In this document: positions 1 through 12,151 of the stretch, in pieces
Layout: every line of letters begins with the position of its first letter
Position numbering within the stretch: position 1 is the stretch's first letter
Source: Pseudomonadota bacterium
GTDB taxonomy: Bacteria > Pseudomonadota > Alphaproteobacteria > Micavibrionales > Micavibrionaceae
Reading direction: 5' to 3'
DNA length: 64,000 nucleotides
NCBI GenBank assembly: GCA_029558635.1
Contig: JAKQEE010000052.1
Location: forward strand, 1-64,000
Translations under genes and position numbers: made by a program
The notes under the pieces: model-generated
Told to the model about the DNA's origin: nothing
Databases searched by the model: none
Seen by the model: only the letters and a program-made list of their open reading frames with translations

Positions 1-1233
1 TATAACGACCTCTCATCATTCCTCACCGCCGCCGGAGGAAGTTTCACCCGCAATTCTATCGCTACCTATTACGATGCGGCGGGAACGCTCCAAACCGCCA
101 GCGCCAACACCCCGCGCTTCGATCACGACCCCGTCACCCACCTTGCCAAAGGGATTCTGATCGAGGAGAGCCGGACAAATTACCAAAAGAACAGTAATTT
201 TTTAGGAATTGGCGGGGGGACATATACGGCAAACCAGAATTTTTCAAACTGGTCACTTCAGTATCCTGCGGGACTTACAGGGCAAAGTACAACGATTACT
301 CCTGGAGCATCCAATGGGATTCCATTTCTTGATATTCGTATGCAGGCAACAAACAGTGGCGCATCTACCGCATACATCACCTTTGCCCCACTCACTGCAG
401 ATAGCATGACTGTTGTCAGCGGGGATAAGACGATTGCTTCGGCTTGGTTTGGTGTAACATCCTACTCCTCAGTTGGAGGAGCCTGCGGTGTCTATGTTCA
501 GAACAGATCTATGACAGCTGGCGGAGCTTTCCTGCCAGCTAGTCCTGTTGTCAGTCTTTCTGGGGTTTCTGCATACCAAAGGCGTGTTACATCCTCTACG
601 ACACATGCAGCGACCGCTGGCACGGCAGCATTATGGAGTTTTATTTCCATGCCAGCCGGAGCAACTTGCGACATCACATACCGTATTGGATCCCCGCAGA
701 TAGAAAAAGGCGCCACATTTGAAACCTCCTATATTCCGACGGGAGTTAATGTCACCGCAACGCGGCAAGCGGACGCCTTATCTATACCGACTGGTGCGTG
801 GTACAATTCATCATCAGGAAGTTTGATGGCATCATCAGATGTTATTCCTTATGATGCGAGTTTATCAGGGGCAATTTCCATCGCTTTCTTTAATGATGGA
901 ACAGGGAACAATCAGTGGGGTCTAAGATACGACACTGGAGGAACATTGACAGCATCCCCATTCTGGAATGGCGGCGTCAATCAAACAACTTTATACACGC
1001 CACCAGTTTTGTCCGCAACCAATTCTACGGTTCATGCACTGTCACTGGGAACTCGTAGTACGGTAGCGAACGGTGGGGCTGTTCAGTCTGGAACATATTC
1101 TGCCTCTCCGACGATAACAAATCTTGATATTGGAAGAAATCTTTCAACGGCCTATTTAAATGGCTGGATTAAAAAACTAAAATACTACCCCGCGCGCGTG
1201 AGTGACACACAGTTGCAATTGCTGACGCAGTAG
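1..1233 (+). CDS. Secreted mosaic surface protein, array copy 1 (5' end outside window)
   Basis: The reading frame is open from base 1 to a TAG at 1231-1233, so the N-terminus lies left of the window. The visible part starts in a block shared with the next two genes (YNDLSSFLTAAGG, then TPRFDHDPVTH and KGILIEE), the kind of module found in phage head-spike and tail-fibre proteins. A unique beta-rich region follows, then the joint QIEKGATFETSYIPT, a second unique LamG-like region, and the shared tail KYYPARVSDTQLQLLTQ. It is the first of four co-directional genes separated by only 10-11 bases, so probably one transcript. Intact relatives carry Sec signal peptides, which argues for a secreted or cell-surface carbohydrate-binding or adhesive role rather than a virion part. 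That role is inferred. Confidence 0.82.
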   Translation, partial: YNDLSSFLTAAGGSFTRNSIATYYDAAGTLQTASANTPRFDHDPVTHLAKGILIEESRTNYQKNSNFLGIGGGTYTANQNFSNWSLQYPAGLTGQSTTITPGASNGIPFLDIRMQATNSGASTAYITFAPLTADSMTVVSGDKTIASAWFGVTSYSSVGGACGVYVQNRSMTAGGAFLPASPVVSLSGVSAYQRRVTSSTTHAATAGTAALWSFISMPAGATCDITYRIGSPQIEKGATFETSYIPTGVNVTATRQADALSIPTGAWYNSSSGSLMASSDVIPYDASLSGAISIAFFNDGTGNNQWGLRYDTGGTLTASPFWNGGVNQTTLYTPPVLSATNSTVHALSLGTRSTVANGGAVQSGTYSASPTITNLDIGRNLSTAYLNGWIKKLKYYPARVSDTQLQLLTQ

Positions 1234-1243
1234 GGGGCGGAGA

Positions 1244-2857
1244 ATGAACAATCTTCTAAAATTCTTGAGCGTCTTCTGTCTGGTACCTCTTCCGGCCTTT
1301 GCCGCGCCGCTGTCATTTACGGTGAATATGAGTGAAGCCGTGACTGTGGATACAAGCGGGGGCACACCGCGCATTGCGGTCGATGTCGGCGGAGTGACAC
1401 GGTATGCGGGGTATACGAGCGGGTCTGGCTCTTCGGCCCTGACGTTTAATTACACACCACAGGCGGGCGATGTCGATCTGGACGGGGTATCCTTATCTTC
1501 TCCGGTTAATCTCAATGGCGGGGCGATTGCTGATTTAAACGGCAACGCGATTTCTAATCTGACGTTTATCCCGCCCAACACAGCGAATGTCAAGATCAAT
1601 TACCCCTCTCTGAGCATGGATTTTGTGTATGATGCCGATGGGCGGTACACATTAAACGGCACAGCCTATAACGATCTGTCGTCATTTCTCACCGCAGCCG
1701 GAGGAAGTTTTACCAGAAATTCAGTTGGAACCTATTTTGATTCAACCGGAACGCTCCAGACTGCCTCTGCCAACACCCCTCGCTTCGATCACGACCCCGT
1801 TACCCACGCCGCCAAAGGCATCCTGATTGAAGAAAGCAGGGCGAATTTAAACCGATATTCGGAGCAATCGGATAATGCTGTTTATAATAAAAGAAACTGC
1901 ACCATCTCTGTAAACGCTATTGTTACGCCGAATGGGACTGTGACTGCTGACAAAGTTGTTGAGGATACTGGATCTGTCTTTAAAGAGTTGCAAATTGTAA
2001 ATACGTCTGTTTCTGCTGCGCCCTATACTGTTTCTGCTTTTGTAAAACCGGCAGGTCGTAACTATATGTATCTTTATGAGAGCCAAACAGAAAAATCTGT
2101 CGTTTTTGACTTATCTTTAGGAACGGTAAATGGAAATTACACGGGAGGTGGAGGATCACTTGCTCCTGCTTATGGTATATCGTTAGTCGGTAACGGGTGG
2201 TATCGTGTATGGATGACATGGAACGCAAATGTAGGAATCATTTCTTACATTGCTTTTGGCTTGCGTAATGCGATCGGTAATTTCAATTCTGGTTATGCTG
2301 GTGATGGCATATCCGGTATTTACATCTGGGGTGCACAGTTAGAGCAAGGGGCGTTTCCGACCTCCTATATTCCAACCACCACTGCTACCGTGACAAGGCA
2401 AATTGACGGGCTAACGCTGCCGACAGGATCATGGTTCAATATGGCTGAGGGGAGTTGGGAATCTCAATTCTCTATACCTTACTTTTATTCGGCTTCGCCT
2501 CGATTAGTGGCTTCTGATTCATATGCGGGAACCTTTTTGAGTTTGAATTTTGATACAACAACGACATTTAAAGCAAGCGTCTATGATGGGACAGGTATTG
2601 GGACCGTTAATAATTCTCTTATTGGTTCGGTCTCTAAAGCGGCAAGTGCGTATACAAGTACAGACAAGTATATCAATTTGAATGGCGGAGCAGTTATATC
2701 TGGGGTTAGATCAAACACTTACCCACTAACCCCAACTAGTAATATTTTTATCGGTAGATCATCAGCAAGTGACCAGCGTTATTCTGGAACTATTCAGGGC
2801 ATAAAATACTACCCCGCCCGCGTGTCTGACACGCAGTTGCAATTGTTGACGCAATAG
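1244..2857 (+). CDS. Secreted mosaic surface protein, array copy 2
   Basis: This 537-residue protein has a Sec signal peptide (hydrophobic to about residue 20, ending AFAA). A SwmB-like repeat domain covers about 21-112 (FTVNMSEAVTV, DVGGVTRYA, GDVDLDGVSLSSP). Next comes the phage-spike-like block around 125-205 (FTRNSVGTYFDSTG, RFDHDP). A first unique sandwich-like module runs to about 362, then the conserved joint QLEQGAFPTSYIPT and a second unique module to about 520. The shared tail KYYPARVSDTQLQLLTQ closes it. Conserved modules are nearly identical to copy 3 while the two inner modules differ completely and are more AT-rich. The start ATG follows a GGAG-like site 10 bases after the previous stop. 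Probable surface adhesin or glycan-binding protein; substrate unknown. Confidence 0.85.
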   Translation: MNNLLKFLSVFCLVPLPAFAAPLSFTVNMSEAVTVDTSGGTPRIAVDVGGVTRYAGYTSGSGSSALTFNYTPQAGDVDLDGVSLSSPVNLNGGAIADLNGNAISNLTFIPPNTANVKINYPSLSMDFVYDADGRYTLNGTAYNDLSSFLTAAGGSFTRNSVGTYFDSTGTLQTASANTPRFDHDPVTHAAKGILIEESRANLNRYSEQSDNAVYNKRNCTISVNAIVTPNGTVTADKVVEDTGSVFKELQIVNTSVSAAPYTVSAFVKPAGRNYMYLYESQTEKSVVFDLSLGTVNGNYTGGGGSLAPAYGISLVGNGWYRVWMTWNANVGIISYIAFGLRNAIGNFNSGYAGDGISGIYIWGAQLEQGAFPTSYIPTTTATVTRQIDGLTLPTGSWFNMAEGSWESQFSIPYFYSASPRLVASDSYAGTFLSLNFDTTTTFKASVYDGTGIGTVNNSLIGSVSKAASAYTSTDKYINLNGGAVISGVRSNTYPLTPTSNIFIGRSSASDQRYSGTIQGIKYYPARVSDTQLQLLTQ

Positions 2858-2868
2858 GAGAGCAGAGA

Positions 2869-4455
2869 ATGAAAACACTTTTGCAATCCCTTTGTTTTTT
2901 TTGCCTGATGCCGATTTCGGCCTTTGCCGCGCCGCTATCGTTCACGGTGAATATGTCGGAAGCGGTAACGGTTTCGGGCTGTCCTGCCAATTGCCCGCGC
3001 ATTGCGGTCGATGTTGGAGGGGTGACAAGATATGCCAGTTATGCGTCCGGTACAGGCGGGTCAGCGTTGACTTTCACCTATACGCCGCAGGTAGGGGATG
3101 TCGATCTCGACGGCGTGACTGTGTCCTCTCCGGTCGATCTTAACGGAGGAACCATTGTCGATCTCAATGGCAACGCGATTTCTGATCTGACCTTTACCCC
3201 GCCCAACACAGCGAATGTCAAAATCAATTATCCCTCGCTCGGGATGGATTTTGTGTATGACGCCGATGGGCGGTATACCTTAAACGGTACGGCGTATAAT
3301 GACCTGTCGTCATTTCTGACTGCTGCAGGAGGAACATTCTCGCGTGGTTCTGTCGGAACATATTTTGATTCAACCGGCACCCTCCAGACCGCCTCTGCCA
3401 ACACCCCCCGCTTCGATCACGACCCCGTTACCCACGCCGCCAAGGGTATTTTAATCGAGGAACAAAGGACGAATTTACTCGCCTATTCCGAGCAGTTTGA
3501 TAATGCCTCATGGGTAAAAAGTAATTCTACTATTGTTGCAAATGCTACAACGGCGCCCGATGGGACAATGACGGCAGATAAGCTTGTTGAAAATACAAAT
3601 AATTCAACGCATTACATGTGGATCGCTCCCACCATGACCAGTGGAGTTGCATACACATTTTCAGTATTTTTAAAAAAAGCAGAAAGAGACATCGCAATTA
3701 TTGATTCTGATACCGATGGAACCCCGGGATGGGTTTATGTGGACTTATCAAACGGCACTTTCGGAGCACAATCTGGAACCCTTTTATCAAAATCGATCAT
3801 TGCGGTAGGGAGTGATTGGTATAAAGTATCAATCAGCTATACTGCAGACAGAGTAGCTATGCAGCCTTGCGTTTTTTTGGCAAATAATATCCCTTCTTAC
3901 TCTTATATCGGTGATGGCACATCCGGCATTTATGTCTGGGGTGCGCAGCTGGAACAAGGCGCATTTCCGACATCCTACATCCCCACCACCAACGCCGCCG
4001 TGGCGAGACATGGGGATATTTTTCAAATTCCCTATAGTGCCAATTTTCTATCTACAAAGGGGGCTTGGTATGCGGAAGCTTTCAACGCGCCCGATACTTC
4101 ATTCAAGCGTATTATCGGAACCAATATAGCCGACGGATATCTTACATACGGAACAAACGGAGCAGCACTGCAATCCTGGGATGGTGTATCCAATATGCAG
4201 GTCACCATCTCTCCATCAGCTTCGGATTCCATCTATGGGAAATATGCACTTGGATGGGATAATTCTACCATGACAAGGTCATTGGTAGCAAATGCAGGGG
4301 CAATTGGTTCAGGGGGCTATGCGGACGGATACCAGCAGTCAACTGCAGTTTGGATTGGGGGGGCTGGGGGCTATGCTTTAAACTCTCATGTTCGTAAAGC
4401 AAAATACTACCCCGTGCGCGTATCGGACACGCAGTTGCAATTGCTGACGCAATAG
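2869..4455 (+). CDS. Secreted mosaic surface protein, array copy 3
   Basis: This 528-residue protein has the same plan as copy 2: Sec signal peptide, SwmB-like domain with an added pair of cysteines (VSGCPANCPR), phage-spike-like block (RFDHDPVTHAAKG), a variable module, joint QLEQGAFPTSYIPT, second variable module, and tail KYYPVRVSDTQLQLLTQ. The first variable module has a short similarity to copy 2 (YSEQFDNASW versus YSEQSDNAVY) and then diverges. A G7 tract lies at 4357-4363 near the 3' end, where slippage would shift the frame. It is separated by 11 bases from copy 2 and 10 from copy 4. Function is inferred as surface binding; no enzyme motif is visible. Confidence 0.85.
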   Translation: MKTLLQSLCFFCLMPISAFAAPLSFTVNMSEAVTVSGCPANCPRIAVDVGGVTRYASYASGTGGSALTFTYTPQVGDVDLDGVTVSSPVDLNGGTIVDLNGNAISDLTFTPPNTANVKINYPSLGMDFVYDADGRYTLNGTAYNDLSSFLTAAGGTFSRGSVGTYFDSTGTLQTASANTPRFDHDPVTHAAKGILIEEQRTNLLAYSEQFDNASWVKSNSTIVANATTAPDGTMTADKLVENTNNSTHYMWIAPTMTSGVAYTFSVFLKKAERDIAIIDSDTDGTPGWVYVDLSNGTFGAQSGTLLSKSIIAVGSDWYKVSISYTADRVAMQPCVFLANNIPSYSYIGDGTSGIYVWGAQLEQGAFPTSYIPTTNAAVARHGDIFQIPYSANFLSTKGAWYAEAFNAPDTSFKRIIGTNIADGYLTYGTNGAALQSWDGVSNMQVTISPSASDSIYGKYALGWDNSTMTRSLVANAGAIGSGGYADGYQQSTAVWIGGAGGYALNSHVRKAKYYPVRVSDTQLQLLTQ

Positions 4456-4465
4456 GGGGCAGATA

Positions 4466-5791
4466 ATGAAAAATCTTCTAAAATTCTTGAGCGTCTTCTG
4501 TCTGATGCCTTTATCGGCGCAGGCCGCGACGGGTATTCCGTTTACGATCAATATGAGCGAGGCGGTAACGGTTTCGGGCTGTCCTGCAAATTGCCCGAGG
4601 ATCGCGGTGGATGTCGGAGGAGTGACGCGGTATGCCGAATACAGCGCGGGCAGTGGAACCAATACGCTGACTTTTACCTATCAGATGGTGTCGGGTGATG
4701 TCGATCTGGACGGGGTTTCCCTGTCCTCGCCGATTGACCTCAATGGGGGATCGATTACAGACCTCAACGGAAATAATGCAACATTAACCTTCGTGCCGCC
4801 GAATACGTCTGGCATTCTGGTGAATGCGGCGGTCCCAAGTGGCTATACGGCGACGTTCATCGACCGGACGGTCACAAACGCCAATAAAACGGCAATGGGG
4901 TTTACCCTAACCCATGGGAAGGCAGGACATACGTATAACTACACGATTTCAAGCTCTGGCGGCGGAACACCATTGACCGGAACGGGCACCACGACGGGCG
5001 CAGCTCAAGCCATCAACGGCATTAACCTGACGTCTTTGCAGGACGGCAAGCTGACATTGTCGGTGACCGTGACCGATTCTTTGGGGGGAACGGGTGTGGC
5101 TGCAACCGACACAGTGCCGATGGCGGTTCTGGATGCCTCGCTGGTCGGGCACTGGACGTTTGATGCCAATGATATTTCGGGCGTCACGGCCTATGACCGG
5201 TCTGGCCAGGGCAACAGCGGAACCCTTACCAACGGCCCGACCCAAGTCGTTGGTCAGGTCGGTGGCGCCCTCAATTTCGATGGGGTGAATGATTTTGTTG
5301 CTGCAGGTGACGTTTTGGACATGGGGTTAAATGATTGGTCGGTAGTTGCTTGGGTTAAAACAAATGGAAACGGTTCAATTATGAGTGTTGTCAGCAAGGC
5401 TGCTGCGCATGTGCAAAACTACCGTTATGCGACGTTTGTAAGTGGTGCAGGAAGAGGATATCCTTTCATGCAAGGAAATGGGGGGGCTGACGTTGAACCA
5501 GTTGGGGGGGCTGATGTTGCTAATGGCGCTTGGCACTTGTTATCGATCGTGTTCGATAGAGATGGGAATGTTGATCAATATGTTGATGGGGCGTTTGATA
5601 TAGGTCAAAGCATCGCCCATTGGCAGGCGGCAAATATGCAGTCTGCAAACCCTTTCCGGATTGGGTCATATACTGCGGCCGATAACATTTCAACATATGC
5701 TATTTTCAATGGCTTTATCGACGATGTCCGTATTTACAACCGCGCCCTAAGCGCAGGAGAAATTGCAACTTTGTATAGCTCAATGCAGTAG
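4466..5791 (+). CDS. Secreted LamG-domain surface protein, array copy 4
   Basis: This 441-residue protein has a Sec signal peptide (ending SAQAA) and the same cysteine-bearing SwmB-like domain as copy 3 (to about residue 115). An Ig-like or cadherin-like segment follows at about 118-218. The C-terminal half is a recognisable LamG / concanavalin-like domain (LVGHWTFDANDISG at about 222, GALNFDGVNDFV, FIDDVRIYNRALSAGEI near the end). It lacks the phage-spike block and the shared KYYPARVSDTQ tail of the other copies, so only the N-terminal cassette is shared. Its first codons match those of copy 2 more closely than copy 3, suggesting shuffling by recombination. Two G7 tracts lie at 5480-5486 and 5504-5510. 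Likely a secreted glycan-binding protein. Confidence 0.85.
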   Translation: MKNLLKFLSVFCLMPLSAQAATGIPFTINMSEAVTVSGCPANCPRIAVDVGGVTRYAEYSAGSGTNTLTFTYQMVSGDVDLDGVSLSSPIDLNGGSITDLNGNNATLTFVPPNTSGILVNAAVPSGYTATFIDRTVTNANKTAMGFTLTHGKAGHTYNYTISSSGGGTPLTGTGTTTGAAQAINGINLTSLQDGKLTLSVTVTDSLGGTGVAATDTVPMAVLDASLVGHWTFDANDISGVTAYDRSGQGNSGTLTNGPTQVVGQVGGALNFDGVNDFVAAGDVLDMGLNDWSVVAWVKTNGNGSIMSVVSKAAAHVQNYRYATFVSGAGRGYPFMQGNGGADVEPVGGADVANGAWHLLSIVFDRDGNVDQYVDGAFDIGQSIAHWQAANMQSANPFRIGSYTAADNISTYAIFNGFIDDVRIYNRALSAGEIATLYSSMQ

Positions 5792-6157: not shown

Positions 6158-8422
6158 TTGGCGATTTATCATTGTTCTTTGCGTGTGTTCTCTCGGGCAG
6201 AAAACCATTCTGCCGTGGCTGCGGCTGCCTATCGGTCGGGGCAAAAACTGGTCGATGAGCGCACAGGAACTATTCATCGCTATGAAAAACGTCATGGCGT
6301 AGTGAAAGCTTTTATCCTGATGCCCGAGATCGCCCCCGATAGGTATAGGGACAGGTTTGCCCTATGGAACGCAGCCGAAGAGATTGAGACACGCAAGAAC
6401 TCCCGTGTGGCTAGAGAGGTCATTATTGCTCTCCCTTATGAATTGAATACACTTGAGCGGGAGAGCCTCACACGGGACATGGCGGCTTACTTGGTCGAGA
6501 AATACCGCGTTGCGGTGGATATCGCCATCCATAGCCCTTGTGAAGGAGACGGGCACGACCCCAGAAACCACCATGCACATCTTCTCTTTACCACGCGGGA
6601 GCTGACCCCGGAGGGTTTGGGAGCCAAAACCCGTATTCTGGATGACAAAATAACGGGTCCCCAGCAGATCGAGATCATTCGGGAAGTCTGGGAGACTTTG
6701 GCCAATGATGCTCTCAAACGCGCTGGACGCTCAGATGTGACGATAGACAGAAGAACGCTAGAAGCCCAAGGGATAGAGCGTATCCCTCAAATCCATGAGG
6801 GAAAGGCTTCGACCTACGCTGAAGAGCTGAATAGAGCTAGTAGAGAAACTGAAGAAACAGAGGATGAAGACGATACCGGCACAGAAGACGGGGACGAGGG
6901 AAAGACAGAGGGCAAGAAATCCGGTTCAGGAGACCAAGGCCGCCTGTCACCGGATATGTCCCCGAAGGAAAATACGGGAATAGACAGATTAACATCTGAA
7001 GACAAAACAGATTCCAGGAAAGATCCTTTTGGGCGAGAAAAGACCCGTGCGGAATTTAACGCCGAGATCAAAGCCCTGAACAAAGAGCGAGCTGAATATC
7101 CCGATAAACCCTTGAATGACCAGATCAAAGAAATCGAACAGGAAATCGACCATCTCGATAGACGGGTTGAGCGTCTGGAAACACTTTTGGACAAAACATC
7201 CCTGCCCCAGAAGCTCCAGAAGCTGATCGGCGATATAGCTGCCAAGGCTAAAGAATTTCTGAGTATCCGGACAGAAGACCAGATTAAACGAGCCTTATCG
7301 GAATCAGAAAAAGAAGAGCGGCACGAACGCCAGATTGCAAGATATGGCAGAATCTACAGGGAAAGCATTCATTCCCAAATTGCAGAAATGAAAAACAAGA
7401 TAGAAACCCTGCAATCGAGAGAAACAGAATACAAGAAATATCGTTCTTTTGTGACTATGATTGAAACAGAGGTAATGAAGCTCCGCGCAACTCAAACCCA
7501 CGCGCTTAATACTCCACAGAAGCCGGATATTGGCACTCCACTCACGGCGCCAGCAGCCAAAGCTATCGAGCATACAAAGGCACCAAGCAAGGTAGATGGA
7601 CAGATTCAGGAAACCAAAGGCAAGGTTCCTGAGGAGTACAAGCCATCTCCGAGGACTGAGACACTACAAACGAGCTTTGATAAAGCCCAACCCGACAAAC
7701 AGCCAAGAGCCTCCAATAGGCGGGACGCAAGCGTTCAGGAAAAGGCAACTCCATCTATAACTCAGACTATCCCATCGGAGGCTGAGAGAGCCACCACCAG
7801 ACCAGCAGAAGAAAAATCCCATACTTCAAGCCTACAAGAAAGACAGACTACAACAAAGATAACGGGAGTAAAGATATCTGCCCCAGTGGAACAACGGACC
7901 GACCCAAAGAATTACAAGATCGAAGCCAATGCGCAGACCAAACAAATGCTGGATAAAATTCAGACGGAACTAAAGGCGCAGAAAAACCAAGAAGCCTTAC
8001 AAAAACAAGAGCAATCCCAAACGACTGAGAAGGTAGACGGATTGAAGGGGAAATTCCGCAAACTGGAATCGCCACCTATCAAGGAAGAGGATTTTCTTCG
8101 CAAGACTAAAGCCGAGGCAGAAAGAAAACGGCAGGACATTCCACCGGAATACCGCGCCCCCCCTTATACAGAAGCGGAGCTACATCCCAAGCTGCAACCG
8201 GAACCAAAGACTGCTCACCCACCGCAAGATGAAGGTGTTTTAGACAAATTCAAAAAAATGTGGAAACAGGAAACCTCAAAGCCTCAATCAAATCCCGATC
8301 AACCAAAACAACAAGCCAAATCCAGAAAGCCTATGTCGTCACCATTTAATCAGGCTGCGTGCAAGCCAAAAATGGATGGTTTTGACCATGATGTTCAATC
8401 AAAACCAGAGAAAAATATTTAG
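6158..8422 (+). CDS. mobA: MOBQ-family relaxase (MobA/MobL)
   Basis: This 754-residue protein begins MAIYHCSLRVFSR, the standard opening of MobA/MobL relaxases, so the TTG at 6158 is the likely start even though it is a rare start codon. Tyr25 in AAAAYRSG is the expected catalytic tyrosine. The metal-binding histidine motif is DPRNHHAHLLF (about 134-144, with HAH at 139-141). The relaxase domain ends near residue 230. The remaining two thirds is charged, coiled-coil and low complexity, with no helicase Walker motif, so it is not a full TraA. Relaxases nick oriT and pilot single-stranded DNA during conjugation; a candidate oriT lies just upstream. No type IV secretion genes are visible, so the element is probably mobilizable rather than self-transmissible. 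Confidence 0.9.
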   Translation: MAIYHCSLRVFSRAENHSAVAAAAYRSGQKLVDERTGTIHRYEKRHGVVKAFILMPEIAPDRYRDRFALWNAAEEIETRKNSRVAREVIIALPYELNTLERESLTRDMAAYLVEKYRVAVDIAIHSPCEGDGHDPRNHHAHLLFTTRELTPEGLGAKTRILDDKITGPQQIEIIREVWETLANDALKRAGRSDVTIDRRTLEAQGIERIPQIHEGKASTYAEELNRASRETEETEDEDDTGTEDGDEGKTEGKKSGSGDQGRLSPDMSPKENTGIDRLTSEDKTDSRKDPFGREKTRAEFNAEIKALNKERAEYPDKPLNDQIKEIEQEIDHLDRRVERLETLLDKTSLPQKLQKLIGDIAAKAKEFLSIRTEDQIKRALSESEKEERHERQIARYGRIYRESIHSQIAEMKNKIETLQSRETEYKKYRSFVTMIETEVMKLRATQTHALNTPQKPDIGTPLTAPAAKAIEHTKAPSKVDGQIQETKGKVPEEYKPSPRTETLQTSFDKAQPDKQPRASNRRDASVQEKATPSITQTIPSEAERATTRPAEEKSHTSSLQERQTTTKITGVKISAPVEQRTDPKNYKIEANAQTKQMLDKIQTELKAQKNQEALQKQEQSQTTEKVDGLKGKFRKLESPPIKEEDFLRKTKAEAERKRQDIPPEYRAPPYTEAELHPKLQPEPKTAHPPQDEGVLDKFKKMWKQETSKPQSNPDQPKQQAKSRKPMSSPFNQAACKPKMDGFDHDVQSKPEKNI

Positions 8423-8452
8423 GCTTTATGGTGCTGATTTTTTACAAAAAGT

Positions 8453-8479
8453 CATGAAAATAACGTTTTTCATGTTTTT
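8453..8479 (+). terminator. Candidate terminator after the relaxase gene
   Basis: An 8-bp hairpin (CATGAAAA at 8453-8460, TTTTCATG at 8467-8474) is followed by TTTTT. It sits 30 bases after the relaxase stop. The stem is AT-rich, so termination would be weak. Confidence 0.4.
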
Positions 8480-8496
8480 CCTGTATTTTTCTACAT

Positions 8497-8583
8497 AATA
8501 AACTAATTGTGATAAAACGTAATAAACTAGTATTGGTTGTGATAAAACGTGATAAACTAACATAGGTACGGCGTGATAAACTA
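8497..8583 (+). promoter_or_regulatory. Ordered repeats upstream of the Fic fusion gene (probable operator)
   Basis: The nonamer (A/G)ATAAACTA occurs four times in direct orientation, starting at 8497, 8521, 8551 and 8575, so with spacings of 24, 30 and 24 bases. The second and third copies are each preceded by GTGATAAAACGT (8509-8520 and 8539-8550), giving a 30-bp repeat unit. The last copy ends 16 bases before the ATG. Each long unit starts with TTGTGA, which could serve as a -35 element. The downstream protein has an N-terminal winged helix like AbiEi, a family known to repress its own operon through repeated sites. The array is therefore probably an autoregulatory operator; iterons are the alternative. 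Confidence 0.6.
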
Positions 8584-8599
8584 GAAAGACTTTAAGCTT

Positions 8600-10117
8600 A
8601 TGGCAAAACCTTCCGAAAAACTGGCAGAATCTCTTGAAGAGCTTCACGCTCTGCAAATGCGAGGCAAGGTGGCAATCAAATCCGGTGACTTGGGGCGGAC
8701 GCATCGTGAGCGGCTGATAAAAAACGGTTTCTTACAAGAGGTGATGAAAGGGTGGTATATCCCGATACGGCCAGACGATAAGGCGGGAGAGAGTACTGCG
8801 TGGTATGCGTCGTTCTGGAATTTCTGCGCGGCCTATCTGGAAGAGCGCTTTGGACAGAAATGGTGTTTGTCTCCCGAACAATCCCTGTTTCTTCATATCG
8901 GAAAAACAACAGTTCCAGCCCAATTGTTGGTCAGGGCACCAGAGGCACATAATAATACAATCGGTTTTCCGCATAAAACATCCCTTCTTGAAGTAAAGGC
9001 CGCTATACCAGAAAAATCAGGACTTGTTACGGTAGAAGGGCTTAATCTTTTCTCTCTTCCTGCCGCGCTTTTGGCGTGTTCTCCGAATTTTTATACTCAA
9101 TATCCAACGGATGCACGCGTAGCACTTTCCGGTGTTCGTGATGCTTCTGAGGTTTTGGAATTATTATTAGAGGGGGGGAAAAGTGTTGTTGCTGGACGAT
9201 TAGCGGGGGCGTTTCGCAATATCGGACGAGGGCGATTAGCTGATGAAATTTTGAAAGGAATGAAGGCAGCAGATTATGACGTCAGAGAGAGTGATCCGTT
9301 TGCGGCACAGAGTCCTATTTTATTCTCGAACCGCCCTGAATCTCCCTATGTCAACAGAATGCGTTTGATGTGGCAGGAGATGAGAGCGCCTATCGTATCT
9401 CGTTTTCCAAAAGCTCCGAAACTTCCCAAGAAGCCAGAAGCATATTTGAAACGGGTTGATGAGGTGTTTGTGTCCGATGCTTATAACTCGCTTTCTATTG
9501 AAGGGTATCGTGTCAGTCGTGAGTTGATTGAGAGGGTGCGCGATGGGGCGTGGAATCCGGATTTGAATGAAGAAGATAAAAGTCACCGTGATGCTTTGGC
9601 CGCAAAGGGATATTGGCAAGCTTTCCAGTCTGTTAAACAAAGTGTCGAACGGGTTTTGAAGGGCGAGAATGCGGGAGATGTCGCTGATGATACTCATAAT
9701 GATTGGTATAGAGAATTGTTTAGCCCAAGTGTCACGGCGGGTTTGTTGAAGCCCTCTGATCTTGCCGGATACCGAAACAATCCTGTTTATATCCGGAAAT
9801 CAAAACACGTTCCGCCCAATGTTGATGCCGTACGCGATATGATGCCCGCATTCTTCGATTTATTGCGGGAAGAGCCTAACCCCGCTGTTCGTGCAATTTT
9901 GGGGCATTTCGTTTTTGTCTATATCCACCCTTATATGGATGGAAATGGCAGGATGGGACGTTTTCTGATGAATGTGATGTTAGCCTCTGGCGGCTATCCG
10001 TGGATGGTTGTTCCGGTGGAACGGCGCAACGATTATATGAAGGCCTTGGAGAAGGCAAGCGTAGGTCAAGACATTGAAAGTTTCGCCGACTTTCTTGCGA
10101 GTCTGATCGAGCAATAG
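8600..10117 (+). CDS. AbiEi-like winged-helix / Fic-domain fusion protein
   Basis: This 505-residue protein has an N-terminal winged-helix segment resembling AbiEi antitoxins (about 18-57: MRGKVAIKSGDLGRTHRERL then GFLQEVMKGWYIP) and an AbiEi-like middle (about 60-230). The C-terminal half is a Fic domain with the complete motif HPYMDGNGRMGR at 443-454. An inhibitory-helix motif of the (S/T)xxxE(G/N) type, SLSIEG, lies at 297-302, N-terminal to the Fic core, as in class II Fic proteins. Fic domains usually transfer AMP from ATP to a target protein, and the inhibitory glutamate blocks ATP binding. The design suggests a self-regulating toxin-like or defence protein on the mobile element. A G7 tract at 9172-9178 lies inside the coding region. 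The ribosome site is weak. Target unknown. Confidence 0.85.
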   Translation: MAKPSEKLAESLEELHALQMRGKVAIKSGDLGRTHRERLIKNGFLQEVMKGWYIPIRPDDKAGESTAWYASFWNFCAAYLEERFGQKWCLSPEQSLFLHIGKTTVPAQLLVRAPEAHNNTIGFPHKTSLLEVKAAIPEKSGLVTVEGLNLFSLPAALLACSPNFYTQYPTDARVALSGVRDASEVLELLLEGGKSVVAGRLAGAFRNIGRGRLADEILKGMKAADYDVRESDPFAAQSPILFSNRPESPYVNRMRLMWQEMRAPIVSRFPKAPKLPKKPEAYLKRVDEVFVSDAYNSLSIEGYRVSRELIERVRDGAWNPDLNEEDKSHRDALAAKGYWQAFQSVKQSVERVLKGENAGDVADDTHNDWYRELFSPSVTAGLLKPSDLAGYRNNPVYIRKSKHVPPNVDAVRDMMPAFFDLLREEPNPAVRAILGHFVFVYIHPYMDGNGRMGRFLMNVMLASGGYPWMVVPVERRNDYMKALEKASVGQDIESFADFLASLIEQ

Positions 10118-10411: not shown

Positions 10412-12151
10412 TTACATCTGTTCGATGCGCGGGATGCCCAGCAAGTCCATGGCTGTGCCCAGATAAATCTTGCTGAGCTGAACCAGCGCGGCACGGGCAT
10501 GGCGCGTCTCAGAATCCGGTTCTGAGTTGATCGGGCATTCCGCATAAAAGGCGTTGAATTTCCGTGCTAGTTCGTAAGTGTAGCTGGCAAATATATTCGG
10601 CTTTAATTTCTTGCATGAGTGATCGACACTTTCATTGAGCGCCGAGAGATGGGCCAAGAGTTGCAATTCGCTAGTCTTGTCCAGTTTGGCCCAATTCACG
10701 GTTCCGTCTTGGGTGTTGTCTTCGCTTTTTCTTTGCAGGCTCGAAATCCGTGCATACACATATTGCAGGTAGGGGCCGGTGTGGCCTTCCATTGTCAGCC
10801 AACTGTCCATATCAAAAACGATTTTGCTTTCGGGATCGACTTTGATCATGCCGTAGCGCACGGCGGAGCACGAAATTTTTTTGGCAACGTCGTCGATTTT
10901 GGCTTCATCCCATTCGGTGCCATAGCGTTCTTTTATAATGTTTTTGGCGTGGGATTCGAGTTCGTCGATCAGTTGCAGGATCGGAACGATGTTGCCTTTA
11001 CGCGAGGACATGGCGCCGTTTTTGGTTTCGACCATTTCATAGGCGAGGTGATAGCAGCGTTCGGCTTCCTTGAAACCCATCAGGTCCAGTGTGGCGAAAA
11101 CCTGTTTGAAGTGGTGCGATTGGCGGTTATCGACGACATAAACGCAGGTGTCGGGTTTTTCCTTTTCAAAGCGGCGCAGGGCTAGGGCAAGGTCTTTGGT
11201 GGCGTAGAGGCCGCGCCCGTCGGATTTACGCAGCATGCAAAATCCAAGATTTTTATCCGAAAGGTCGGCGCCGATGGCGCCTTGATCCTTGATGAAAACG
11301 CCTTTAGCCAGATAGTCTTCCACAACTTGGGAGGAGGCCTCGGAGACGTCAGATTCGCATGTATCACCGTCGAATTTGATATCCAGCCATCCATAGACTT
11401 CGTGGAACATATCAAGCGACCATTTGCGCGTTTCTTTCCACATGTCGTAGTAATGGCCGTGGCGTTCTTCGATTTGCTTCAGGACGTCCGAGATTTCTCC
11501 CTTGATCCGTTCGGCATCGTCGCCTTGGGCTTCTTCCTGTTCGGTGGTTGAGGCGACATACATTCTACCAAGCCATGTGCCGGGGTTTTCTCCCTTTGCC
11601 GGAGCAAGGTTGTATTTGCCGATATACCACAGGCATTTTGCGACATGCGCGCCTTCGTCGCCGTGATAGTTTTCGGCATAGACGTGATGTCCGGCTTGTT
11701 TCAACAGGCGGCAGAGCGTGTCGCCCAGAACGGAGTTCCGTGTGTGGCCGATATGCATTTCCTTATGGGTGTTGGGCTGGGAATGTTCGATCAAGTAACG
11801 GTGCGGTTCGCGCGTTGCAATGGGCATTACGTCGGTGGAAGTGATGCCTTGTTCCAGAATGTTGCCAATGACACTTGCGGACAGGGTGATGTTCAGGTAC
11901 GGCCCGCTTTGTTCTGCCGCTGTGATCTCTTTGTCAGCGGACAGTTTATCCGCCAAGGTCGTTCCCAGATCTTTTGGGTTCATTTTGGCTTGTTTTGCCA
12001 CGGCAAAGGTTTTGAAGGCGTATTGGCCCAGATGCGGCTGGGGGCAGGCCTCAATGCTCTCATAAATATCAGTAACGGCAGCTTCAATGCCTGCGTTTGC
12101 CAGAGTCACAGCGATTTTTTCGGAGAGAAGTGTTTTGGTTTTATCGTACAT
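10412..12151 (-). CDS. argS: Arginyl-tRNA synthetase
   Basis: This 579-residue class I synthetase charges tRNA-Arg with arginine in the cytoplasm. It has an N-terminal Add-1-like domain (about 1-110), the HIGH signature exactly as HIGH at 133-136, a KMSKS equivalent MSSRKGN at about 381-387, and a DALR anticodon-binding domain ending in the usual PRIEQM-type C-terminus with terminal Met. Length is normal for the family. It is the first core gene to the right of the integrated element and its 3' end lies 15 bases from the tRNA-Leu remnant. No terminator is obvious between them. Confidence 0.97.
   Translation of the reverse strand: MYDKTKTLLSEKIAVTLANAGIEAAVTDIYESIEACPQPHLGQYAFKTFAVAKQAKMNPKDLGTTLADKLSADKEITAAEQSGPYLNITLSASVIGNILEQGITSTDVMPIATREPHRYLIEHSQPNTHKEMHIGHTRNSVLGDTLCRLLKQAGHHVYAENYHGDEGAHVAKCLWYIGKYNLAPAKGENPGTWLGRMYVASTTEQEEAQGDDAERIKGEISDVLKQIEERHGHYYDMWKETRKWSLDMFHEVYGWLDIKFDGDTCESDVSEASSQVVEDYLAKGVFIKDQGAIGADLSDKNLGFCMLRKSDGRGLYATKDLALALRRFEKEKPDTCVYVVDNRQSHHFKQVFATLDLMGFKEAERCYHLAYEMVETKNGAMSSRKGNIVPILQLIDELESHAKNIIKERYGTEWDEAKIDDVAKKISCSAVRYGMIKVDPESKIVFDMDSWLTMEGHTGPYLQYVYARISSLQRKSEDNTQDGTVNWAKLDKTSELQLLAHLSALNESVDHSCKKLKPNIFASYTYELARKFNAFYAECPINSEPDSETRHARAALVQLSKIYLGTAMDLLGIPRIEQM

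Follow-up and report, generated by a model that had tools for sequence, protein, structure and literature searches.

Evidence for the exchange of inner modules between constant ends in a multi-copy family of phage-spike-like proteins from one genus of Micavibrionaceae

We analysed four adjacent genes (W1–W4) at the start of a stretch of 64,000 nucleotides (nt; the window), which comprises the first 64 kb of the 780,335-base contig G000:C68. The genes belong to a family that is present in multiple copies in one genus, and we consider it probable that its members are Sec-signal proteins whose inner modules, predicted to bind glycans, are exchanged as cassettes between constant ends. The claim we hold most firmly is that modules are exchanged at three seams, which we regard as very likely; to the functional part, i.e. 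glycan binding, display and recognition as predicted from the proteins, we give about an even chance. The replaced modules and their boundaries are observed in the compared sequences. The host assembly is fragmented (3.65 Mb in 439 contigs, completeness 100, contamination 5.91).

A protein of the main type consists of a constant N-terminal module (N), a J block, an inserted carbohydrate-binding-like module of the phage/GTA spike-fibre type (CBM), a lectin domain similar to LamG and a tail that is fixed, with exchange boundaries at the J end, the SYIPT joint and the tail. The parts of the array are as follows:

1..1233, + strand: W1, cut by the contig start; J 1-168, CBM 169-741, LamG 742-1164, tail 1165-1230
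727-741, + strand: SYIPT joint of W1
1244..2857, + strand: W2, complete; signal 1244-1303, N 1304-1597, J 1598-1834, CBM 1835-2377, LamG 2378-2788, tail 2789-2854
1598..1834, + strand: J block of W2 (seam 1), ending KGILIEE, 95% protein identity to W3
2363..2377, + strand: SYIPT joint of W2 at the CBM/LamG border (seam 2)
2804..2868, + strand: end of the W2 tail and the 11-nt gap (seam 3)
2869..4455, + strand: W3, complete; signal 2869-2928, N 2929-3225, J 3226-3462, CBM 3463-3987, LamG 3988-4386, tail 4387-4452
4466..5791, + strand: W4, second architecture; signal 4466-4525, N to ~4813, LamG_3 5279-5767

The four open reading frames (ORFs) are separated by gaps of 10, 11 and 10 nt, in agreement with the spacing given by an earlier reading of the letters alone (the sequence-only reading), and W1–W3 do share the RFDHDP block, the SYIPT joint and the QLQLLTQ tail. 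The tail, the gap and the next signal form one repeated junction, which is 66-78% identical over 200 nt among four junctions, three in the window array and one at the opposite end of the contig. Signal peptides had been proposed for all copies: W2, W3 and W4 indeed start with signal-peptide-like sequences, ending in AFA followed by AP or in AQA followed by AT, as read from the sequence rather than called by a signal-peptide program. W1 is cut by the start of the contig, and neither its signal nor its N module is visible in the window. W4 had been described as keeping only the N-terminal cassette and ending in LamG. Its architecture, with a segment of no assigned type between the N module and LamG_3, recurs at 55% identity in another species (loci L046 and L043), and we thus regard it as a second recurrent architecture and not as a truncation. 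The same genome contains further copies. Two genes in inverted orientation lie at the far end of C68 (E2, complete, and E1, cut), and contig C328 carries S1 and S2, each a single copy between apparent housekeeping genes; C68 and C328 could stem from different organisms given the contamination value. Each of the complete copies W2, W3, E2, S1 and S2 has its own start and signal-like N-terminus.

When comparing the copies of the window, we find that the ends are less alike, and some inner modules more alike, than the sequence-only reading had stated. It called the ends near-identical, which is an overstatement: the protein identity between W2 and W3 is 77% in N, 95% in J and 73% in the tail, and synonymous differences amount to 0.62 in N and 0.53 in J (within-genome medians 0.70 and 0.69). 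At the level of sequence, the ends are thus conserved as protein and not as near-identical DNA. The inner modules were said to be unrelated, and this holds for the LamG modules of W2 and W3, which are only 15% identical; it does not hold for their CBMs, which are 43% identical and both match the NCBIfam model NF048003, and the match to phrog_5939 covers both inner modules in each of W1–W3. Most of the inner modules are thus diverged forms of two kinds of domain, one like a spike-fibre CBM and one like a LamG lectin. The CBM of W1 is an outlier; it has no NCBIfam match and shares only the joint with the W3-type CBM when a two-sequence profile of the W1 type is aligned to the latter with hhalign. 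Nucleotide identity at the seams of the window copies is 72-93% over J and 96% at the W2/W3 tail, which would allow occasional homologous recombination.

Across the genus, ends and cores behave differently. We collected 75 family ORF pieces, two of them from other genera, and aligned 41 near-complete proteins of the genus, leaving aside 33 pieces and a single distant protein. The mean identity within genomes (116 pairs) is 64% for N and 71% for J, and 20% for the CBM and 22% for LamG. In three orthologue pairs at shared loci, the CBM is 81-87%, LamG 87-93% and N 89-94% identical; orthologous cores are about as conserved as N, and the cores are therefore not simply fast-evolving. Permutation of the genome labels showed that N and J resemble their genome-mates far above chance (p 0.0002 for both) whereas the cores do not (CBM 0.61, LamG 0.52), and there was no effect for the tail either (0.17). 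Many ends are old by their synonymous differences (within-genome medians ~0.7) and some are recent in one block only, for instance in a pair from G003 (N 0.15 vs J 0.89). We further assembled 195 sequences, of which 109 could be parsed into modules and 86 could not, and 99 were left after removal of near-duplicates. Clustering at 45% identity yields three N clusters (85 sequences) and three J clusters, compared to 57 CBM and 58 LamG clusters. Most CBM clusters with at least two members join more than one LamG cluster (17 of 18), and the reverse is found for 16 of 19; at 55% identity, 16/18 CBM and 11/13 LamG clusters join more than one partner cluster. CBM and LamG distances are uncorrelated, and the correlations of module distances (83 sequences) support independence.

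Replacement becomes visible at shared loci, which we defined by their flanking genes. The close species G002 and G005 share four such loci, with aligned stretches that are 91-95% identical. Loci A and C are colinear and retain their cores, whereas at loci B and D the DNA identity collapses at a module seam and returns at the tail. At locus D, the break follows the codons for EERRTN, within codons of the seam at the J end, and identity is back at the last nine codons. At locus B, G002 has a single gene and G005 has four; the N module of the G002 gene is closest to that of gene 1 of G005 (90%), its tail to that of gene 4 (91%); its core is unlike all four (CBM 14-20% and LamG 16-28% in the pairs compared). 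The exchange boundary is thus at the J end in locus D and near the J end in locus B. In more distant species, the cores at the same loci also differ, and replacement is there indistinguishable from other histories. A frameshift splits the gene that G002 has at locus D (L082:3307-4915), which points to either a pseudogene or an assembly error.

Protein pairs point to the inner seam. Certain homologues match each other at 98-100% from the signal through N and J to the end of the CBM yet carry unrelated LamG modules; in others, N and LamG are 98% identical and the CBMs differ. In the pairs P0019/P0033 and P0031/P0050, the boundary lies just after the place equivalent to SYIPT; P0031 (H6864_07025) and P0050 (H6864_06800) have their longest contig in common and probably occur in one genome. 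The comparisons of divergence, shared loci and protein pairs all support the proposal of the sequence-only reading that inner modules are exchanged between conserved blocks. Uniform divergence or the same module order in relatives had been named as findings that would speak against exchange; we looked at both, the latter among related species rather than strains, and neither did so.

The modules resemble the binding parts of phage and gene transfer agent (GTA) particles. In W1, W2 and W3, the match to the phage tail protein family phrog_5939 runs from J through the CBM and LamG to the tail. NF048003 (GTA_spike_fiber, curated cut-off 36 bits) covers the CBM in W2, W3 and ten other family proteins tested; scores in bits are 154.7 for W2, 184.7 for W3, 182.1 for E1, 41.9 for E2, 161.3 for S1, 52.3 for S2, 61.2-125.4 for the G005 array, 48.2 for L081, 79.3 for L051 and 123.9 for P0031, and the model does not match W1, W4 or the fragment of the broken gene L082. 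Among structures in the PDB, a sequence-profile search ranks the head spike fibre of RcGTA first (E-value 3e-49; 4e-42 with a second alignment), followed by two baseplate/tail proteins of Pseudomonas phages, Pa193 gp46 and E217 gp45. The AlphaFold2 (AF2) model of W3 has a mean confidence (pLDDT) of 65 and is good only over the CBM, which matches the phage proteins Pa193 gp46 and E217 gp45; pLDDT is <50 over most of 387-528 and 112-133, and we therefore claim no fold for W3 outside the CBM. For W1, the model has a pLDDT of 86 and is good over almost its whole length. VIA-align matches it best to lectin domains of the sialidase and CBM40 types (~155 residues aligned in the range 51..410), and by plain Foldseek, tandem CBM22 domains rank first. 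As the W1 CBM lies at ~57-247, the model suggests, from alignment ranges rather than coordinates, that the J end and the C-terminal part build a single lectin jelly roll into which the CBM is inserted. Toxin chains also appear in the fold-match lists of W1 and W3, which we attribute to general similarity of beta-sandwich and lectin folds. Pfam finds LamG_3 in W4 (PF13385, LamG/ConA-like lectin; 70.2 bits at residues 272-434, gathering score 27.6), nothing above cut-off in the cores of W1–W3 and nothing credible in the N module. A SwmB-like domain had been suggested for the N-terminal part; this could not be confirmed, as no SwmB-type model matches the N modules of W2 and W3 in Pfam (E <=5) or the NCBIfam scan (E up to 1). 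The N module matches only phrog_30287, a family of unknown function. The further suggestion of phage-like binding modules behind a signal-peptide-like start is supported by the PHROG, structure-profile and NCBIfam matches.

How the exchange would proceed can be outlined. Homologous recombination, presumably of the RecA type, would swap modules at the seams; gene conversion may keep the ends similar among genome-mates, and the cores seem to be drawn from a pool that is not structured by genome. The proteins would then be exported, displayed at the surface and used to recognise prey or partners. Sugar binding is predicted from the homology to a spike-fibre protein that attaches to cells more strongly as capsular polysaccharide increases (PMC10218006, PMC7296036). 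Prey recognition is suggested by the names of the sequence records, by the predatory life of cultured Micavibrio (PMC3189940) and by the fibres of Bdellovibrio described below. The most far-reaching version, which we put forward tentatively and hold to be rather doubtful, is a likely predatory genus with a combinatorial repertoire for prey recognition, in which export ends would be homogenised per genome and glycan-binding cores derived from GTA or phage spikes traded across species as DNA cassettes at three fixed seams. If glycan binding is true, swappable modules would let the bacteria recognise different cell surfaces. Binding cores that are exchanged independently at known seams provide a natural set of variants for mapping specificity and form a bacterial parallel to the shuffling of phage tail fibres, and the replaced cores at shared loci make specificity testable on expressed natural variants, with no need to culture the organism first.

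Several observations weigh against this reading. At locus B, identity drops inside J, before the break, and J and LamG distances are weakly correlated (rho 0.12, p 0.02), so the independence of the modules is not perfect. The ends in the array are old (W2/W3 synonymous differences 0.53-0.62) and show no recent exchange except for W1 vs E1, and a DNA donor of the exchanged cores was not found. The P proteins were compared as protein only, and some could be chimeric assemblies. As to function, no surface anchor was recognised in the family proteins, a signal peptide alone takes a protein only to the periplasm, and the likely predatory lifestyle of the genus rests on record names.

Could the pattern arise by old tandem duplication and fast divergence of the binding modules, with no exchange? 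The ends of W2 and W3 are nearly saturated at synonymous sites and the duplication is therefore old, and it may well have occurred alongside exchange. As a full explanation we consider it very unlikely, as orthologous cores are conserved like the ends, two proteins that are 98-100% identical over ~365 residues have totally different LamG modules, CBM and LamG distances are uncorrelated and the identity at locus D breaks within codons of the seam. Chimeric assemblies, in which conserved blocks made the assembler join the wrong cores, are slightly less improbable: the named records of the genus are metagenome assemblies, 21 of the 75 ORF pieces are cut by contig ends, and the window contig breaks in this repeat at both ends. 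However, the seams of paralogues mostly differ at at least half of their synonymous sites, which is poor ground for misjoins, and the flanks and gene ends of locus D are collinear in two separate assemblies, so that a chimera would need two misjoins in one gene.

Other alternatives concern the purpose or origin of the family rather than the exchange. The exchange might serve antigenic or phage-escape variation of the bacterium's own coat instead of recognition of prey or partners, which is the strongest of the rivals but still improbable. Constant ends, variable centres and tandem copies recall phase-variable surface proteins such as those of the sap genes of Campylobacter fetus, i.e. tandem S-layer gene homologues with a conserved 5-prime part and a variable remainder that recombine, with one copy expressed. 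In the genome of the window, however, every complete copy comes with a start and a signal-like N-terminus, which sets the family apart from silent cassettes that depend on a single expression site. Conservation also extends to the 3-prime end, which differs from sap, and the modules are of sugar-binding types. The genes could also be left over from a prophage or a gene transfer agent, which would fit the match to a phage tail protein and the GTA spike domain. We give this very little credence, since the proteins have signal-like starts and a constant N module, no phage structural protein was found by Pfam among 20 scanned neighbours, two single copies lie among apparent housekeeping genes, and the family is multi-copy in one genus. 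Lastly, the replacement of whole modules does not look like the action of a diversity-generating retroelement.

The closest precedent is a different family, the mosaic adhesive trimer (MAT) fibres of Bdellovibrio. These are a predator-made, phage-fibre-like multigene family of 21 members (13 S74, 8 non-S74), one of which has demonstrated glycan binding, and the mechanisms of prey recognition in predatory bacteria remain obscure (Caulton et al. 2024, PMC10769870). Both families combine a conserved part with diversified binding parts across many genes, which we use as a working analogy only. MAT proteins are trimeric beta-prism fibres, some with S74, whereas the window family combines a spike-fibre CBM with LamG (single-chain models only), exchanges modules at three seams, one of them at a fixed tail, and shows this exchange at shared loci. 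No S74 family appears among the Pfam matches of W1–W4 at E <=0.1, as in the non-S74 MAT subfamily. The RcGTA protein Rcc01080 has a J-CBM-joint core homologous to that of the window family; it sits on a virus-like particle and is anchored by an N-terminal Leu-Gly repeat (PMC7296036). W2–W4 begin with a signal-peptide-like sequence instead, and the core lies between the signal-like start with N and the LamG half, in many copies. Likewise, phrog_5939, Pa193 gp46 and E217 gp45 are virion parts, and the signal-like start and N module of the window genes lie outside the matched stretches. Our literature search, with supplementary files and subscription papers outside its range, yielded no description of such a family in Micavibrio among the papers listed; the Micavibrio ARL-13 genome paper contains neither 'LamG' nor 'surface protein', and the passages of it that were consulted mention no such family.

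By profile search, the family occurs in 22 of 104 genomes, i.e. 9/11 of the window's genus, with 1-15 ORF pieces each, and 13/93 outside it, with one match each except for one genome with two, most of them partial. Among 49 family loci in named records, 38 come from alphaproteobacterial metagenome genomes of the genus, and for the remaining 11 the match lies in the N module; NCBI taxonomy places Micavibrio in Bdellovibrionota, and the record titles say alphaproteobacterial. A protein search scored 7986 candidates and found 3851 relatives at E 0.001, the best 120 of which were listed. Viral contigs yielded three loci that match the N module only, and none of 392 phage records reaches at least 60% identity (one covers 80% of W3). 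In other genera, we observed an ORF of 1112 amino acids that contains a partial and a nearly complete family unit in tandem (L205:3744-7079), and single-copy proteins of ~730 amino acids whose first part weakly matches the J-LamG core (L069:2215-4380, L202:3388-5589, L203:4302-6479). One of the latter was checked; it has other tail-fibre matches further on, and none of four proteins tested next to it matches PHROG.

The sequence-only reading placed the array on a mobile element, which our results do not demonstrate: the surroundings contain one MobA/MobL gene (no search for attachment sites was made), and S1 and S2 stand alone among apparent housekeeping genes.

6158..8422, + strand: MobA/MobL-family gene (Pfam MobA_MobL, 186 bits), 366 nt downstream of the array

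Relatives of this gene match at 18 places in 5/11 genomes of the genus; within 6158-10117 of the window, it is followed by a Fic-domain gene with PADLOC matches to SoFic/PDC-S. Neither the MobA/MobL gene nor the G002 gene L083, whose surroundings are matched in G005 only downstream, proves an insertion. Of 20 proteins scanned from 8.6 to 42.5 kb, most have housekeeping functions, and none is a phage structural protein by Pfam. No syntenic site was found for the window array; only argS is shared nearby with G010 and G006, and its neighbourhood is not conserved. This argS (window 10412-12151) is 69% identical in two genomes of the genus and 26-30% in the other eight, as if it had been replaced by transfer. 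The protein beside the other contig end, which we take to be cytochrome-c-peroxidase-like, has no match in ten other genomes of the genus.

The cuts in W1 and E1 fall at one and the same position; the two genes are identical over their first 40 codons, and beyond the J block their cores have 30-65% nucleotide identity per 20-codon window; most likely, the assembly broke in a repeat here. P0003, a protein found elsewhere, has the same core as E1 and shares its first ~84 residues exactly with W2 (by eye). After E2, a remnant of a further family gene that contains only the signal peptide (L009:15292-15512) is followed by tRNA-Ser(cga), as if the array had become shorter beside this tRNA gene. Inverted copies of one repeat lie at the two ends of the 780-kb contig (window 1; L009:18336), and recombination between them could invert the segment.
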